This document shows positions 4,564 to 25,707 of a DNA stretch of 33,049 bases, piece by piece; within the stretch, counting starts at the first letter, position 1, and each line of letters opens with the position of its first letter. A program made the position numbers and the translations under genes. The DNA comes from Candidatus Acidiferrales bacterium. Lineage in GTDB: Bacteria; Acidobacteriota; Terriglobia; Acidiferrales; UBA7541. Below the pieces are notes generated by a model. The model was not told the DNA's origin. It did no database searches and was given only the letters and a program-made list of their open reading frames with translations. The stretch is taken from positions 1 to 33,049 of the forward strand of contig JASHRL010000078.1 in NCBI GenBank assembly GCA_030037355.1. The letters are read 5' to 3'.

Positions 4564-4606
4564 ACCGGCAGGTCTGCTGAACTTCCGCGATGGTTGCCCA
4601 GCAAAG

Positions 4607-5803
4607 ATGAACAAACTCTCGATACGCGAGCTGGAATTAAAAGGGAAACGCGTCTTCGTGCGCGCGGATTTCAATGTGCCGCTGGCTGACGGCAAAGTGG
4701 CGGACGATACACGGATTCGCGCGACGCTGCCGACGCTGAGGCTGGCGATGGAGCGTGGGGCGCGAGTGGTGGTCGCTTCGCACCTGGGACGGCCGAAGGG
4801 AAAGCCGGAAGAGAAGTACAGCCTGGCGCCGGTGGCGGCGAGGCTGAAGGAGTTGCTGGGGAAGCCGGTGGTCTTTGCGTCGGATTGTGTGGGCGAAGGG
4901 CCGGTCTCGCGGAGCCGCGCGCTGAAGGATGGCGACGTGATGCTGGTCGAGAATGTGCGGTTCCACGCGGAAGAAGAAAAAAACGATGAGAAGTTCTCGA
5001 AGCAGCTCGCGGAGTTGTGCGACGGGATTTTCGTGTGCGACGCATTCGGATCGGCGCACCGCGCGCACGCGTCGGTGGTGGGCATCACGCATTTTGTGAA
5101 GCAAGCGGCGGCGGGGCTGCTGATGGAGCAGGAGCTGAAATATCTGGGGCAGGCGATGACCAATCCGGAGCGGCCGTTTGTGGCGATCCTGGGCGGCGCA
5201 AAAGTGTCGGACAAGATCGAAGTGATTGAGAATTTGATGAAGATCGCCAATACGATGCTGATCGGCGGGGCGATGGCGTATACGTTTTTTCGCGCGAAGG
5301 GATACACGACGGGGAAATCGCTGGTGGAAGAAGACAAGGTGGATCTGGCGCTGACGCTGCTTGGCGAGGCGCGAGAGCGGCATTGCCCGATTGTGCTTCC
5401 CGTTGACCACGTGTTGGCGCGAGGGTTGGAGGAAGGCGCGCAGACGCAAATCACAGGAGTCGAAGGCACGCCGGCGGATTGGATGGGGCTGGACATCGGG
5501 CCGAAGACGATTGATTTGTTCCGCAAGGAAATTGCGGGCGCGAAAACGATTGTGTGGAATGGGCCGGTGGGGATGTTCGAGAAGCCGGCGTTTGCGCGGG
5601 GGACGCTGGCGATTGCGCAGGCCGTCGCGGACGCGACAATGAAGGGCACAACTTCGATTGTGGGCGGCGGGGACAACGTGGCGGCGGTGGAGCAGGCGGG
5701 AGTGGCAGAAAAGATTTCGCACATTTCGACGGGCGGCGGAGCTTCGCTGGAATTTCTGGCGGGACGAAAATTGCCCGGCGTTGAAGCGCTGACGAATTGT
5801 TGA
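4607..5803 (+). CDS. pgk: Phosphoglycerate kinase
   Basis: 398 residues, full length. It transfers phosphate from 1,3-bisphosphoglycerate to ADP in the first ATP-yielding step of glycolysis. Hallmarks are KRVFVRADFNVPL near the N terminus, VVVASHLGRPKG, LVENVRFH, ILGGAKVSDKIEVI, WNGPVGMFE and the C-terminal GGGDNVAAV...HISTGGGASLEFL. No strong Shine-Dalgarno is visible before the ATG, so translation may depend on read-in from gap. The TGA at 5801-5803 is followed after 11 bases by the probable start of tpiA. Confidence 0.97.
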   Translation: MNKLSIRELELKGKRVFVRADFNVPLADGKVADDTRIRATLPTLRLAMERGARVVVASHLGRPKGKPEEKYSLAPVAARLKELLGKPVVFASDCVGEGPVSRSRALKDGDVMLVENVRFHAEEEKNDEKFSKQLAELCDGIFVCDAFGSAHRAHASVVGITHFVKQAAAGLLMEQELKYLGQAMTNPERPFVAILGGAKVSDKIEVIENLMKIANTMLIGGAMAYTFFRAKGYTTGKSLVEEDKVDLALTLLGEARERHCPIVLPVDHVLARGLEEGAQTQITGVEGTPADWMGLDIGPKTIDLFRKEIAGAKTIVWNGPVGMFEKPAFARGTLAIAQAVADATMKGTTSIVGGGDNVAAVEQAGVAEKISHISTGGGASLEFLAGRKLPGVEALTNC

Positions 5804-19924: not shown

Positions 19925-22318
19925 CTAACCGTTCAAGCGGCGAAGAATTTCGAGCGCGGCCTCCTTGGCGTGTTCGTGGCATTCGCCGACCGGGCCGACG
20001 CACGAGGGGCAGCCCTTTTCACAAGGGCATGCAGAGATGAGTTCGTGCGTGCGCTGCAAGAGAAGATTCGCCGCACGATAAAGCGGCTCGCTGAAGCCAA
20101 TGCCGCCAGGATAAGCGTCGTAGAGATAAAGATTGGGCTCGAAGAATTCTTTGCTCTCCGTGAGATCAACGGCGGCCTCGGGGACCTGCTCCCATTCGGC
20201 TTCGATCCCGGGATTCGGCGGACGCTCGCCGATGGCGGCGCCAAGGTCGCGGCGATCACACATCAGGAGCAGTGTGGCGATGGATTCGAGAGCGTGGAGC
20301 AGACCGAACATGCCGCCCTGACGGTCGGAAACAGAGAATGGAAGTGAAGCGACGAGCTCGCGACGAAGCGTGAGCCAGAATGCCGTCGTGTGCATTTCGT
20401 TTTCCGGCAATTCAAGTTTTCCTGCGCCGAGATTTTCATTGGTGAAGAATTTGATTTTCTTGAAGCCGACGACTTGCGAGCGAACGAGAACGTCGCCGTG
20501 CGCGCGCTCCGAGGGGCCAGAGGAAGAATGTGAATCGGCGATTTCGAGAACACGAACCTGCGTATAGCGAATGGCGTCAGTGAAGTAATCGACGTTGACG
20601 CGTTTGACATAGACTTTGCGTTCGGCGAAATCGAGACGCTCGACATGAAATTGCTGACCTTCGTGGATGTAGATGGCCTTGGGATGCACCGTGGTGAGTG
20701 CGCTCGCGAAATCGACTTCGCCAATGACTTCGGGTCCGGCCGATTCATCGCGCTCGTTGCCGGTGATGTCGATAATCACGAAGTTGTCGGAAGTGACGGA
20801 GCGCAAGCTGACGGCGTTGGCGGGATAGGCTTCCTGAATCCAGTGATAGTTGCCGCCGCTCTTGTGAAGAAATCCAGCTTGGGCCAGACGCTCGCAGAGC
20901 GCGGGCAAATCGACGTCGCCGAAACGCTCGGCGGGATCGAGCGGCAATTCGAAGGCAGCGCACTTCAAATGATTGACGAGAATTTCCAGGTTATCCGGCT
21001 GAACGTAAGCGTGCTCCGGCGAACGGCCAAAGAAATATTCGGGATGCTGAACGATGAATTGATCGAGTGGCGAGGACGAAGCAACCATCACGGCGCATGA
21101 GGTGCCAGTGCGGCGGCCAGCGCGGCCAGCGCGCTGCCACGTGGAAGCGATAGAACCGGGGTAGCCGGCGAGAACCGTGGCGTCGAGCGAACCGATGTCG
21201 ATGCCGAATTCGAGCGCATTCGTGGAGACGACGCCACGAATTTTGCCGTCGCGGAGGCCGCGTTCGATGTCGCGGCGTTCGCCGGGCAAATAGCCTCCGC
21301 GATAGCCGCGAATCGGTTCCGAACGGCCCGGCGAAGAGGGAAAAGCCTGGCGGAGATATGTGAGCATGACTTCCGTGTGCAAGCGGCTATTGGCGAAAAC
21401 GATGGTCTGGAGATTGCGGGAAAGCAGTTCCTTGGCGACGCGCGTGGCCTCGTTCAGGTAGCTGCGGCGAATGCCAAGATTGCGATTGACGACCGGCGGG
21501 TTGTAAAAGACGAAAACTTTCTCGGCGGAAGGTGCGCCATTTTCGTCCACGACTTCGACTTCGTCTTCGATGAGGCGAGAAGCGAGCTCTCCGGGATTTG
21601 CGATTGTCGCAGAGCAGCAGATGAAAATGGGATCGGAACCGTAGAATCGCGCGATGCGGCGAAGGCGGCGAAGAACATTGGCGAGATGACTGCCGAACAC
21701 GCCGCGATAGGTGTGAAGCTCGTCGAGAACGATGTAGCGCAAGTTTTCGAAAAGGCGCATCCACTTGGTGTGGTGCGGGAGGATTCCCGTGTGAAGCATA
21801 TCGGGATTGGTGAGAACTATGTGGCCGCGCTCGCGAATGGCTTTGCGAGCGTCGCCGGGCGTGTCGCCATCGTACGTGAAGACGCCGAAGCGGTCATTGA
21901 GGCGCGTCGCGAGATCGTGCAATTCGGCGAGCTGATCCTGGGCGAGAGCCTTTGTGGGGAAGAGGTAGAGAGCGCGCGTGTCGGCGTTTTCGAGGATGGC
22001 GTTCAACACAGGCAGGTTGTAGCAGAGCGTCTTGCCGGAGGCGGTTGGCGTGACGACGACAGCGTTCTTTCCCGCGTGAACGTGTTCGACGGCCGAGGAT
22101 TGGTGCGTGTAGAGTTGCGAGACGCCTTTGGCGCGATAAACCGCGGCCAATTCCGGCGCGGCCCACGAAGGTATCGCTGCGAACTGCGCCTCACGCGCGG
22201 GGATGCGCTGAACAGCGGTTAGAACCTCTCCAGTGCGGTCGCGCGCCGCAATCTCGCCGAGGGCCTCGTGGATGACGTCGAGGGAGGTGCGGGTACGAAC
22301 TGCCAGCGATTGTGCCAA
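19925..22318 (-). CDS. mrfA: MrfA/YprA-type DEAD/DEAH-box helicase
   Basis: About 797 residues. Helicase motifs in order: THQ upstream of Walker A TPTASGKT, the DExH box VLDELHTYRGVFGSH, CSATIANP (motif III), EFGIDIGSLDA and QRAGRAGRRTG (motif VI). The C-terminal domain ends with a four-cysteine cluster, SACPCEKGCPSCVGPVGEC, as in MrfA, where the cysteines bind metal and matter for function. TTG 22318 is preferred since AAGGAGG lies six bases before it; ATG 22357 is the alternative, but would give a very basic leader. The downstream gene is mrfB. The pair should translocate on DNA and excise crosslink or adduct damage. Confidence 0.92.
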   Translation of the reverse strand: MAQSLAVRTRTSLDVIHEALGEIAARDRTGEVLTAVQRIPAREAQFAAIPSWAAPELAAVYRAKGVSQLYTHQSSAVEHVHAGKNAVVVTPTASGKTLCYNLPVLNAILENADTRALYLFPTKALAQDQLAELHDLATRLNDRFGVFTYDGDTPGDARKAIRERGHIVLTNPDMLHTGILPHHTKWMRLFENLRYIVLDELHTYRGVFGSHLANVLRRLRRIARFYGSDPIFICCSATIANPGELASRLIEDEVEVVDENGAPSAEKVFVFYNPPVVNRNLGIRRSYLNEATRVAKELLSRNLQTIVFANSRLHTEVMLTYLRQAFPSSPGRSEPIRGYRGGYLPGERRDIERGLRDGKIRGVVSTNALEFGIDIGSLDATVLAGYPGSIASTWQRAGRAGRRTGTSCAVMVASSSPLDQFIVQHPEYFFGRSPEHAYVQPDNLEILVNHLKCAAFELPLDPAERFGDVDLPALCERLAQAGFLHKSGGNYHWIQEAYPANAVSLRSVTSDNFVIIDITGNERDESAGPEVIGEVDFASALTTVHPKAIYIHEGQQFHVERLDFAERKVYVKRVNVDYFTDAIRYTQVRVLEIADSHSSSGPSERAHGDVLVRSQVVGFKKIKFFTNENLGAGKLELPENEMHTTAFWLTLRRELVASLPFSVSDRQGGMFGLLHALESIATLLLMCDRRDLGAAIGERPPNPGIEAEWEQVPEAAVDLTESKEFFEPNLYLYDAYPGGIGFSEPLYRAANLLLQRTHELISACPCEKGCPSCVGPVGECHEHAKEAALEILRRLNG

Positions 22319-22443
22319 CCCTTTCCTCCTTCGCCTTTTGTTCGCTAAGGCTAGCATTGGGAGATGGACGACGCAACGGGAATTTTAGGATGCGAGCTCG
22401 GATGCATACGGGGAGAGAGCTTCCGCGGGTGAGGATGGGCGCG

Positions 22444-22449
22444 TACAAT
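22444..22449 (+). promoter_or_regulatory. -10 element of the fluoride-riboswitch transcript
   Basis: TACAAT, one base from consensus, with a weak TTCCGC 17 bases upstream. Transcription would begin about 15 bases before the aptamer. Confidence 0.5.
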
Positions 22450-22467
22450 GACGGAACGAAACAGACG

Positions 22468-22517
22468 AACGGCGATGGAGTTCGCAGAAAGCGCCCGAAA
22501 GGGCTGATGACTCCTGG
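22468..22517 (+). promoter_or_regulatory. Fluoride riboswitch aptamer (crcB motif)
   Basis: The sequence matches the crcB motif. GCG (22472-22474) pairs with CGC (22483-22485) around loop ATGGAGTT. GCCC (22493-22496) and GGGC (22501-22504) close a GAAA loop, and the conserved TGATG follows at 22505-22509. The loop GGAGT (22477-22481) can pair with ACTCC (22510-22514) to form the pseudoknot that holds fluoride. One deviation is an A at 22486 where the outer stem pair is expected. ACTCCTGG is also the 5' arm of the terminator, so fluoride binding should prevent termination and switch expression on. It lies upstream of the gene at 22644. Confidence 0.87.
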
Positions 22518-22544
22518 CTGCCACGAGGCGTCCAGGAGTTTTTT
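22510..22544 (+). terminator. Riboswitch-controlled intrinsic terminator
   Basis: ACTCCTGG (22510-22517) pairs perfectly with CCAGGAGT (22532-22539), with inner GCC/GGC pairs around ACGA and a run of six T beginning at 22539. Its 5' arm shares bases with the fluoride pseudoknot, so the two folds exclude each other. Confidence 0.88.
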
Positions 22545-22614
22545 GTTGGGGGTCAGTGGCGCAGAATCGAAGTGAAAGCGCGGACGATTTTGTATCGAAG
22601 CACGAAGAGTTAGG

Positions 22615-22647
22615 ATGATACGGGATAGGGCTCTCGCGAAAACATGA
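22615..22647 (+). CDS. Ten-codon ORF overlapping the start of the riboswitch-controlled gene
   Basis: MIRDRALAKT with its TGA overlapping the ATG of the next gene (ATGA). The next gene has only a weak Shine-Dalgarno, so a translated leader could help by coupling. With ten codons this could be chance. Confidence 0.2.
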   Translation: MIRDRALAKT

Positions 22648-23066
22648 GCGAAAAACTAAAGCTGGGTGAGAATCACCGACGCGTTGTGTCCGTATTGCTG
22701 CGCGGCATTGAAGCGACGTGCGATGAGGTTGAGGCGACGCTCGATGAAACGGCGGGCGTCATGCGGAGGGTGAGCGACGATCTTTCGACGGAACAGAGCA
22801 AAGCGTTGCGGCGAATGAGCGAAGCGGTGCGCACGGAGATTCGGCGGATCAGCTCAGAGATCGAATTGGACCCGGCGATGAATTCGCGGCGACGGAGGAT
22901 TCGCGCGCTGGTGTCGAGTGCGATCGTTAATTTGGAGGAATCAGACCCCAAGAAGTTGCGCGGCTATGGCCACCTGGCGGAGGATGCGGTGAAGCGGCTG
23001 GAGAATGAGTTCGCGAAGCTGCTCAAGATGTTGGACGAAATGGCGGAAGCCGTCGAGCGGACGTAG
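22644..23066 (+). CDS. Unrecognised helical protein under fluoride-riboswitch control
   Basis: 140 residues, almost entirely alpha-helical by composition. The first two thirds have heptad-like spacing of Leu, Val and Met with many Glu and Arg (VEATLDETAGVMRRVSDDL, RRMSEAVRTEIRRISSEIEL), suggesting a coiled coil. The C-terminal part is again helical (LAEDAVKRLENEFAKLLKML). There is no membrane segment, signal peptide or cysteine motif apart from Cys26. It is not CrcB/Fluc, EriC-type CLC or another known fluoride gene. It is the first gene after the riboswitch, 100 bases from the terminator, with no other clear promoter, so its production likely depends on fluoride. Role unknown; it could be a regulator, a stress chaperone or a scaffold. 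Confidence 0.75.
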   Translation: MSEKLKLGENHRRVVSVLLRGIEATCDEVEATLDETAGVMRRVSDDLSTEQSKALRRMSEAVRTEIRRISSEIELDPAMNSRRRRIRALVSSAIVNLEESDPKKLRGYGHLAEDAVKRLENEFAKLLKMLDEMAEAVERT

Positions 23067-23127
23067 GCCCGGCGCTCGGAAGCGAATCGCAGTGGCTCGA
23101 AACCGCATGAAGCTATAGAATGGCCGT

Positions 23128-23484
23128 ATGGCGCAGGCCTTTCTGATTTTCGACTTCAGCAAGAACGAAGAAGCAGCACAGCAGGCGCGGCATCGCATCG
23201 ACGGATGGAAACAGGGATTTCGTCTCGGTAATAAACTGCAATTCAAATTCGAAAGAACGTCCGCTGATTCGGCGAAGAATGCGAAGGCCGATGAATCCGG
23301 CGCGGATGGGCGCGTGCGGCTGTTCATACGCCTCGATTTCTCGAATCACGAAAAGCATTTGTTTCAGACATGGGTAAAACGAATTCCAAGCGAAGAGCCG
23401 TTTAAGTCGGTCCAGTCTGAACTCATTCGATCGAATGAGGACAATTTCGAGAAGACGGACGATTTGTACGAATCCTTGACGTAG
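23128..23484 (+). CDS. Unrecognised small soluble protein
   Basis: 118 residues, mixed composition with a charged C-terminal half. No signal peptide, membrane helix or known motif is seen. The segment MAQAFLIFDFSKNEEAAQQARHRIDGWKQ and VRLFIRLDFSNHEKHLF suggests a small alpha/beta protein. It follows the riboswitch-controlled gene by 61 bases, so it may belong to the same fluoride-responsive unit, although a promoter in the gap is not ruled out. The ATG at 23128 has only a weak Shine-Dalgarno. Confidence 0.65.
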   Translation: MAQAFLIFDFSKNEEAAQQARHRIDGWKQGFRLGNKLQFKFERTSADSAKNAKADESGADGRVRLFIRLDFSNHEKHLFQTWVKRIPSEEPFKSVQSELIRSNEDNFEKTDDLYESLT

Positions 23485-23503
23485 GCCGGGCGGGAATTCG
23501 GTT

Positions 23504-23512
23504 TGGTATAAT
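23504..23512 (+). promoter_or_regulatory. Extended -10 promoter of the E1 gene
   Basis: TGGTATAAT: a perfect TATAAT preceded by the TGn extension, which can replace a -35 box. The start would be near 23519, about 32 bases before the ATG. Confidence 0.6.
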
Positions 23513-23550
23513 CGACGTGCCATCCACCCGTACGACGCGAAAGGAAGCTG

Positions 23551-25707
23551 ATGGCCCTGCAGACAAAGACAAAAACGGCAAAATTTGACGCCGCGAAATA
23601 TCACGGACTCGACCGCGACGCCTTGATTCGATTGTACCGTACGATGTTTTTGTCGCGCCGGCTGGATGACCGCGAGATTCAACTCAAGCGCCAAAACAAA
23701 ATCTATTTTCAGATCAGCGGTGCGGGTCATGAAGCGGCGACGGCCGCTGCAGGGCTCATTCTTAAGCCGGCCTACGACTGGTTTTATCTCTATTACCGCG
23801 ACCGCGCGCTTTGTCTGATGCTGGGAGTGACTCCGTACGAAATGCTGCTCGAAGGCGTGGGTGCGAAGGATGATCCCGCATCGGGCGGACGGCAGATGCC
23901 ATCGCACTGGGGGCATCAAGCGTACAACATCGTTTCGAGATCTTCTCCGACGGGTACGCAGTGGCTGCAAGCGGTCGGAGCCGCAGAAGCATCGCTCTAC
24001 TATGACCGATTTCCGAAAGCACTGAAACAGGCGGAGGCGGCGCCGCTGGGAAAAGCGGTGCATCACTATCGCGACGAAGTCGTTTGCGTTTCTGGCGGCG
24101 AAGGCGCGACGAGCGAAGGAGAATTTTGGGAGGCGATCAACACGGCGTGCCTTCGAAAGCTACCCGTGATTTTCCTTGTGGAAGACAACGGCTACGCGAT
24201 TTCGGTGCCTTCGGAAGTGCAGCATCCGGGAGGAAGCGTTTCGCGGCTGCTGGCGAATCATCCGAATTTACATATCGAGGATTACGATGGGACGGAACCT
24301 CTGGAAAGTTACGCCGCGGCGCAGCGCGCGGTGACGTACTGCCGCGAGCGGCGAGGCCCGGCGCTGCTTCATGCACACGTGACGCGGCCCTATTCGCATT
24401 CTCTCTCCGACGACGAGAAGCTCTACAAGACGGCGGAAGAGCGGGAGATCGAAGCGCATCGCGATCCGATTCCGAAATTCGGTTTGTTTCTCGTGCGCGA
24501 GGGGATTTTGGACGAGCGGGAACTAGAGGCACTTGAAGCGGGAGTCGAAAAGGAAATCTTGGAAGCTACGGATCGCGCGCTGGCGGCGGAGATTCCCTCC
24601 GCGGATTCGATTTACGAATTCGTGTACTCGCCGGACATAGATCCCAAGAGCGAAGCGTTTGTGGCGAAGCCGGTGAATACGGGTTCGGCGCTGACAATGG
24701 TGGAGATGGTTTCGGCGACATTGATGGATGAGATGGGCCGCGACGAGCGGGTCGTCGTCTTCGGCGAAGACGTAGCCGATTGCAGCCACGAAGAAAGCCT
24801 GAGCAAGGTCAAAGGCAAGGGCGGAGTATTCAAAGCGACGGCTGGACTTCAGCGCAAATATGGCGGAGAGCGTGTCTTCAATTCGCCGCTTGCAGAGGCG
24901 AACATCGTTGGGCGCGCTATCGGAATGTCCACGCGCGGAATGAAGCCGGTGGTGGAGATTCAATTTTTTGACTACATCTGGCCAGCGATGATGCAGATTC
25001 GGAACGAGCTGGCGACGACAAGATGGCGGTCGGGAGGGAAATTCAAGTCACCGGCTGTGGTACGCGTGGCGATTGGCGGATATTTGACCGGCGGAGCAAT
25101 CTATCACAGCCAGTCCGGCGAAGTGATGTTTACGCACCAGCCGGGCTTGCGTGTGGTGATGCCGTCAACGGCGCTGGATTTGTGCGGATTGCTGCGGACT
25201 TCCATCCGATGCGACGATCCCGTAATGTTCCTCGAACACAAGCATCTTTACCGGCAGCCTTATAATCGCGCGCCGTATCCGGGCTCTGACTTTACGATTC
25301 CATTTGGCAAAGCGCGCGTGGTTCGCGAGGGCAAGGATGCAAGCATCATCACTTACGGAGCGGTCGTTCATCGCGCGGAAGTGGCCGCAGCGGAGCTGGC
25401 GCGGCAGGGAAAAGACGTCGAGATCATCGACCTGCGGACGTTGAGCCCGTACGATTGGGAGGCGATCGCGACGTCAGTGCGAAAGACGAATCGCGTGATC
25501 GTGGCCTACGAAGACACGCTTTCGTGGGGCTATGGAGCGGAGATCGCAGCGCGGATTGCGGATGAGTTGTTCGAGGAGCTGGATGCGCCGGTGCGGCGCG
25601 TGGCAGCCACGGATACATTCTGCGCCTATCAGCCGAAGCTGGAGGATGAGATTTTGCCGCAGACCGAGGACATCGTTAAAGCAGTCCGGGAGCTGATTGC
25701 TTTTTGA
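23551..25707 (+). CDS. 2-oxoacid dehydrogenase E1, fused alpha and beta subunits
   Basis: 718 residues. The alpha part (about 20-340) holds the thiamine diphosphate motif [38 protein letters not shown]. The beta part (about 380-718) has [41 protein letters not shown] and the C-terminal transketolase domain with [13 protein letters not shown]. In most bacteria the alpha and beta chains are separate genes; the fused form is a known variant. It decarboxylates a branched-chain or related 2-oxoacid and passes the acyl group to an E2 lipoyl protein. No E2 or E3 gene lies in the window. GAAAGGAAGCTG precedes the ATG. The exact substrate cannot be told. Confidence 0.9.

Follow-up and report, generated by a model that had tools for sequence, protein, structure and literature searches.

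Known fluoride-response operons carry crcB, eriC, enolase, pyrophosphatase, mutS or formate hydrogen lyase genes; mutS, ion transport and formate hydrogen lyase were already listed behind the crcB motif by Weinberg in 2010 (PMC2864571), and enolase and pyrophosphatase are named among fluoride riboswitch genes (PMC11139923). The element studied here lies in a window of 33,049 nt, a stretch of contig JASHRL010000078.1 from a draft genome of Candidatus Acidiferrales bacterium (GCA_030037355.1). It shares with the fluoride riboswitch family RF01734 the consensus aptamer, the pseudoknot, the overlap with a terminator and a full-length covariance model (CM) match; it differs in that its first gene encodes an uncharacterised protein (P0001), crcB and DUF190 having been deleted, and in that the outer pair of P1 is broken. 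Taken as a whole, the likely reading is that an inherited ON switch lost crcB-DUF190 by deletion and now controls P0001, a member of a helical "RGYG" family that takes part in the fluoride response.

A cmscan search of Rfam aligned the element to model positions 1-64 of RF01734 at 39.8 bits (E 8e-8), above the gathering score of 34 bits. The initial annotation had called a near-complete crcB motif with a GGAGT/ACTCC pseudoknot, a GAAA-capped stem and TGATG, and had proposed the Rfam scoring of the region; the score bears out the call, and each of these parts is present in the sequence and CM alignment (Table 1). P3 and the pseudoknot are perfectly paired, and P1 forms three of its four pairs. 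Folding of the terminator stretch gives -37.4 kcal/mol (z -3.24), with 0 of 200 shuffles equally stable, and the terminator shares GACTCCTGG with the pseudoknot, as the initial annotation had said; the expression platform and the aptamer are mutually exclusive, ACTCC being common to both. Together these features demonstrate a riboswitch at the sequence level. Judging from its anatomy and class, fluoride would stabilise the aptamer pseudoknot and withdraw ACTCC from the terminator; unable to form, the terminator would then let P0001 be transcribed, and perhaps P0002 and the E1 dehydrogenase too. No internal sigma-70-like promoter was found in 22340-23700, a scan that is weak evidence in this phylum.

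Table 1. Features of the riboswitch locus in window coordinates
Feature	Position	Strand	Basis
HRQ1/MrfA-type DEAD helicase; divergent conserved neighbour, synteny anchor	19925-22357	-	Domain search; synteny
Fluoride riboswitch aptamer (crcB motif, RF01734)	22462-22523	+	cmscan 39.8 bits, gathering score 34
Pseudoknot 5' strand GGAGT	22477-22481	+	Sequence and CM alignment
GAAA-capped stem (P3)	22493-22504	+	Sequence
CTGATG	22504-22509	+	Sequence
Intrinsic terminator GACTCCTGG...CCAGGAGTT plus T run, mutually exclusive with pseudoknot	22509-22544	+	Fold; conservation in G040
Pseudoknot 3' strand ACTCC, also part of terminator 5' arm	22510-22514	+	Sequence; fold
DUF190 remnant, last codons (VKARTILYRSTKS and stop), marking the crcB + DUF190 deletion	22572-22613	+	Comparison with G040
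P0001, helical protein of the RGYG family (140 aa); the gene that now comes first after the riboswitch	22644-23066	+	ORF; homologues; dN/dS
P0002, conserved 118-aa protein	23128-23484	+	Present in 80/89 family genomes
2-oxoacid dehydrogenase E1 (alpha and beta fused); conserved downstream neighbour	23551-25707	+	Pfam E1_dh, Transket_pyr; synteny

In the sister genome G040 the order is riboswitch (4568-4629), crcB, DUF190, P0001, P0002 and E1 dehydrogenase, with crcB and DUF190 confirmed by Pfam CRCB and DUF190 matches and a P0001 that is 89% identical to the one in the window; G037 has the same gene set, divided between two contigs. The tail of the G040 DUF190 (KVRVILYRSAKH and stop) corresponds to the remnant in the window, and crcB-DUF190 lies between the same flanks in G040, whereas the window keeps the aptamer, the terminator and P0001 without crcB and nearly all of DUF190. 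This comparison demonstrates the deletion at the sequence level. Both breakpoints have short stretches of similar sequence, and the deletion probably took place at a short AAAG-GCG microhomology. All five genomes of the genus that we searched carry exactly one crcB, at the native locus in G037 and G040 and in a separate fluoride island in G038, G039 and the window genome (G000). Since G037 and G040 hold the full set, the DUF190 tail is kept and each genome has one crcB, the layout in the window is, on sequence comparison, the remnant of a standard riboswitch-crcB-DUF190-P0001 operon, of which the element would be the inherited transcriptional ON riboswitch. The initial annotation had placed the riboswitch upstream of a gene other than a known exporter; P0001 is indeed the next gene and is not CrcB, but this arrangement is a secondary state, and because crcB and DUF190 were deleted from the operon, little can be concluded from its position in this genome by itself. 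The same loss of crcB and almost all of DUF190 would put P0001 under the direct control of the riboswitch, and we infer that fluoride induces it.

The most durable alternative is that the riboswitch is a decaying relic of crcB loss and P0001 a mere passenger left by the deletion, a reading that we regard as unlikely. In its favor, crcB and DUF190 are absent from the locus, the window riboswitch has the lowest bit score of the same-locus copies in the genus (39.8 bits against 52.7 and 54.8 in the intact sisters, or 13-15 bits lower), and, apart from two copies with an offset P1, it is the only one of the 48 copies compared with a broken outermost P1 pair (G-A). As it scores below its sisters and has lost a P1 pair, some decay is possible. 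However, against G040 the aptamer core is identical at 40 of 44 positions and the terminator past the shared arm at 29 of 30, while the upstream flank has 69 identical and 43 different positions of 112 aligned (38% divergence); because core and terminator were kept while the flank diverged, the element is under constraint. One wobble pair of P3 in G040 is G-C in the window, which strengthens P3. P0001 is itself intact, with dN 0.059 and dS 0.60 against G040 (dN/dS ~0.1), although most of that history may predate the deletion, and its relatives stand directly 3' of riboswitches in other genera. From these comparisons, the window riboswitch is probably still functional, perhaps weakened.

P0001 was described by the initial annotation as an uncharacterised helical protein, and our searches agree. 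It has no significant Pfam or NCBIfam match, weak scores to VPS51, TMF and similar models looking like coiled-coil noise; there is no CRCB domain match that would make it a CrcB/Fluc channel, and no Dynamin_N/GTPase domain within its 140 aa that would make it a dynamin-like GTPase. The structure model is all-helical, with five predicted helices and moderate confidence (pLDDT 76.8, pTM 0.50). No convincing hit came out of a profile search of PDB sequences (best E 0.005). The model had no Foldseek match better than E 1.2, and its VIA-align scores were those of generic helical bundles (best Z 8.1 at rmsd 16.5 over 118 residues), under the level of helical noise. Most named relatives come from MAGs of Acidobacteriota, including one from Terriglobia, and one is labelled Bacillota. 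The neighboring P0002, considered as a fluoride gene, was rejected as probably not fluoride-specific: it occurs in 80 of 89 family genomes, often without an upstream riboswitch, and often adjoins the E1 dehydrogenase in the family.

By sequence, P0001 is a member of the unnamed RGYG family, which is tied to fluoride riboswitches across Acidobacteriota. Searching with a profile of stand-alone members, and counting matches outside the window's own family, we found members in 22 other genomes of the phylum, from 17 genera. A fluoride riboswitch is present in 22/22 genomes with a member versus 110/373 without (Fisher 9.6e-12), and in 17/17 genera versus 46/193 (Fisher 2.3e-10), both p values being inflated by shared ancestry; these counts demonstrate the association in the genome sequences. 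A riboswitch is present within 1.5 kb in 14 of the 25 matched loci outside the window's own genome, one of the 14 riboswitches scoring below the family cutoff. In two genomes of other genera the riboswitch directly precedes a stand-alone member, and no exporter gene intervenes: G477 (locus L142), where it has its own terminator, and G051 (L106 607-710), where the start codon lies 30 nt past the aptamer and the pseudoknot has covaried to GGGGT/ACCCC. In L106, CAGGGG, 9-14 nt 5' of the ATG, can pair with CCCCTG, which suggests translational control of this P0001-like gene. In other families (L143, L145, L147 and L148), another ORF, zinc-ribbon/HEAT-like in L145 and L147, either separates the riboswitch from the P0001-like gene or stands next to it.

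The association might be one of mere neighborhood, arising from shared ancestry in fluoride operons without any fluoride role for the family. Most members do share their loci with crcB, DUF190, enolase or dynamin genes, and some, such as the P0001-like genes of several g6 genomes, have no detected riboswitch nearby. Yet the association turns up again in 17 genera beyond the window's own family, with differing gene orders, and members occur both as single genes and as fusions, including the two directly behind riboswitches in G477 and G051; we judge the neighborhood explanation improbable. Since the family is tied to fluoride riboswitches throughout the phylum, P0001 is a good candidate for a fluoride-response component, as had been proposed, and the proposal stands on this link where its position in the window genome adds little.

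The RGYG domain is also the N terminus of riboswitch-controlled dynamin-like GTPases (BLASTP E 1e-5, 0 of 2,000 shuffles). In profile-profile comparison, the P0001 family aligned with the dynamin N domain over 125 columns that include the RGYG motif (hhalign 96.8%, E 2e-10); within the (R/K)GYG motif, GYG is kept in all rows of alignment A2 except G042 (AYG). The riboswitch-controlled protein, of 715 aa, has a Dynamin_N GTPase domain in common with bacterial dynamin-like proteins (Campylobacter DLP pair 5owv, IniA 6j72 and BDLP 2j68) and is related to 5owv and IniA. P0001 differs from all of these in being homologous only to the N-terminal helical domain before the GTPase (residues ~11-142) and in having no GTPase itself. 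No published link between dynamin and fluoride riboswitches was found in the open-access literature searched. Dynamin as an obligate partner of P0001 was rejected, as G037 and G040, which do have P0001, gave no match to the dynamin of the island. Because P0001 occurs with crcB-DUF190 without the island dynamin, yet is fused to dynamins elsewhere, we favor a role as adaptor or regulator at the membrane; our best guess is that P0001 is a helical adaptor in a fluoride response linked to the membrane or to the exporter, where, as a small fluoride-induced protein, it would act alongside the exporter, DUF190 or, where present, dynamin-like GTPases.

The window genome has seven fluoride riboswitches, four of them above the family cutoff. 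The other six lie on two other contigs, L009 (G000:C231) and L010 (G000:C339), at the head of island genes for MutS-type ATPases, Hyf/Nuo-like subunits, a DnaB-like helicase, a YfcE-type phosphoesterase, enolase, a HEAT protein, cyclopropane synthase, two dynamin-like GTPases, CrcB and a double DUF190. Like known fluoride-response operons, the island has crcB, enolase, MutS-type ATPases and Hyf/Nuo-like subunits behind riboswitches; to these it adds the RGYG family, dynamin-like GTPases, cyclopropane synthase, and DnaB-like and HEAT proteins. The DnaB-like helicase (L009:8068-9696) follows a fluoride riboswitch that, at 27.3 bits, falls short of the cutoff. Several genera of the family have related islands, and in G039 one contig carries nine riboswitches. 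The contig ends (L009 1-498 and the end of L010) overlap by 498 bases at 91% identity, so that the draft may be a mixture of strains or contain the island twice.

The only CRCB match in the window genome is on another contig, and fluoride export would now be encoded in this separate multi-riboswitch island. Where an island carries an exporter, the native one is absent, as though it had been replaced. The deletion and the island are read from a draft genome of 408 contigs, and the other genomes of the genus are also multi-contig assemblies; still, that the operon is really intact and the absence of crcB-DUF190 an assembly error is highly improbable, for although the draft is fragmented, its island contigs are possibly strain-mixed and both breakpoints have similar short stretches, the locus runs unbroken along a single contig and keeps the DUF190 tail, a second crcB was not found in the genome, and the native crcB is also missing in the island-bearing relatives G038 and G039. 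On the reading that we prefer, a deletion from an inherited operon, the genus is a natural experiment in which the native crcB operon has eroded where a multi-riboswitch island carries the exporter.

A fluoride riboswitch serves as a label of gene function, the genes that it controls being likely to belong to fluoride defense. More tentatively, and with somewhat more doubt than confidence, we propose that the RGYG domain defines a new family devoted to fluoride tolerance, whether it works by itself or as a regulatory head on dynamin-like GTPases, and that membrane remodelling may be an unrecognised arm of bacterial fluoride defense. Here the label picks out an unnamed family and a link to dynamin-like GTPases across the phylum, which suggests a membrane component of fluoride tolerance.
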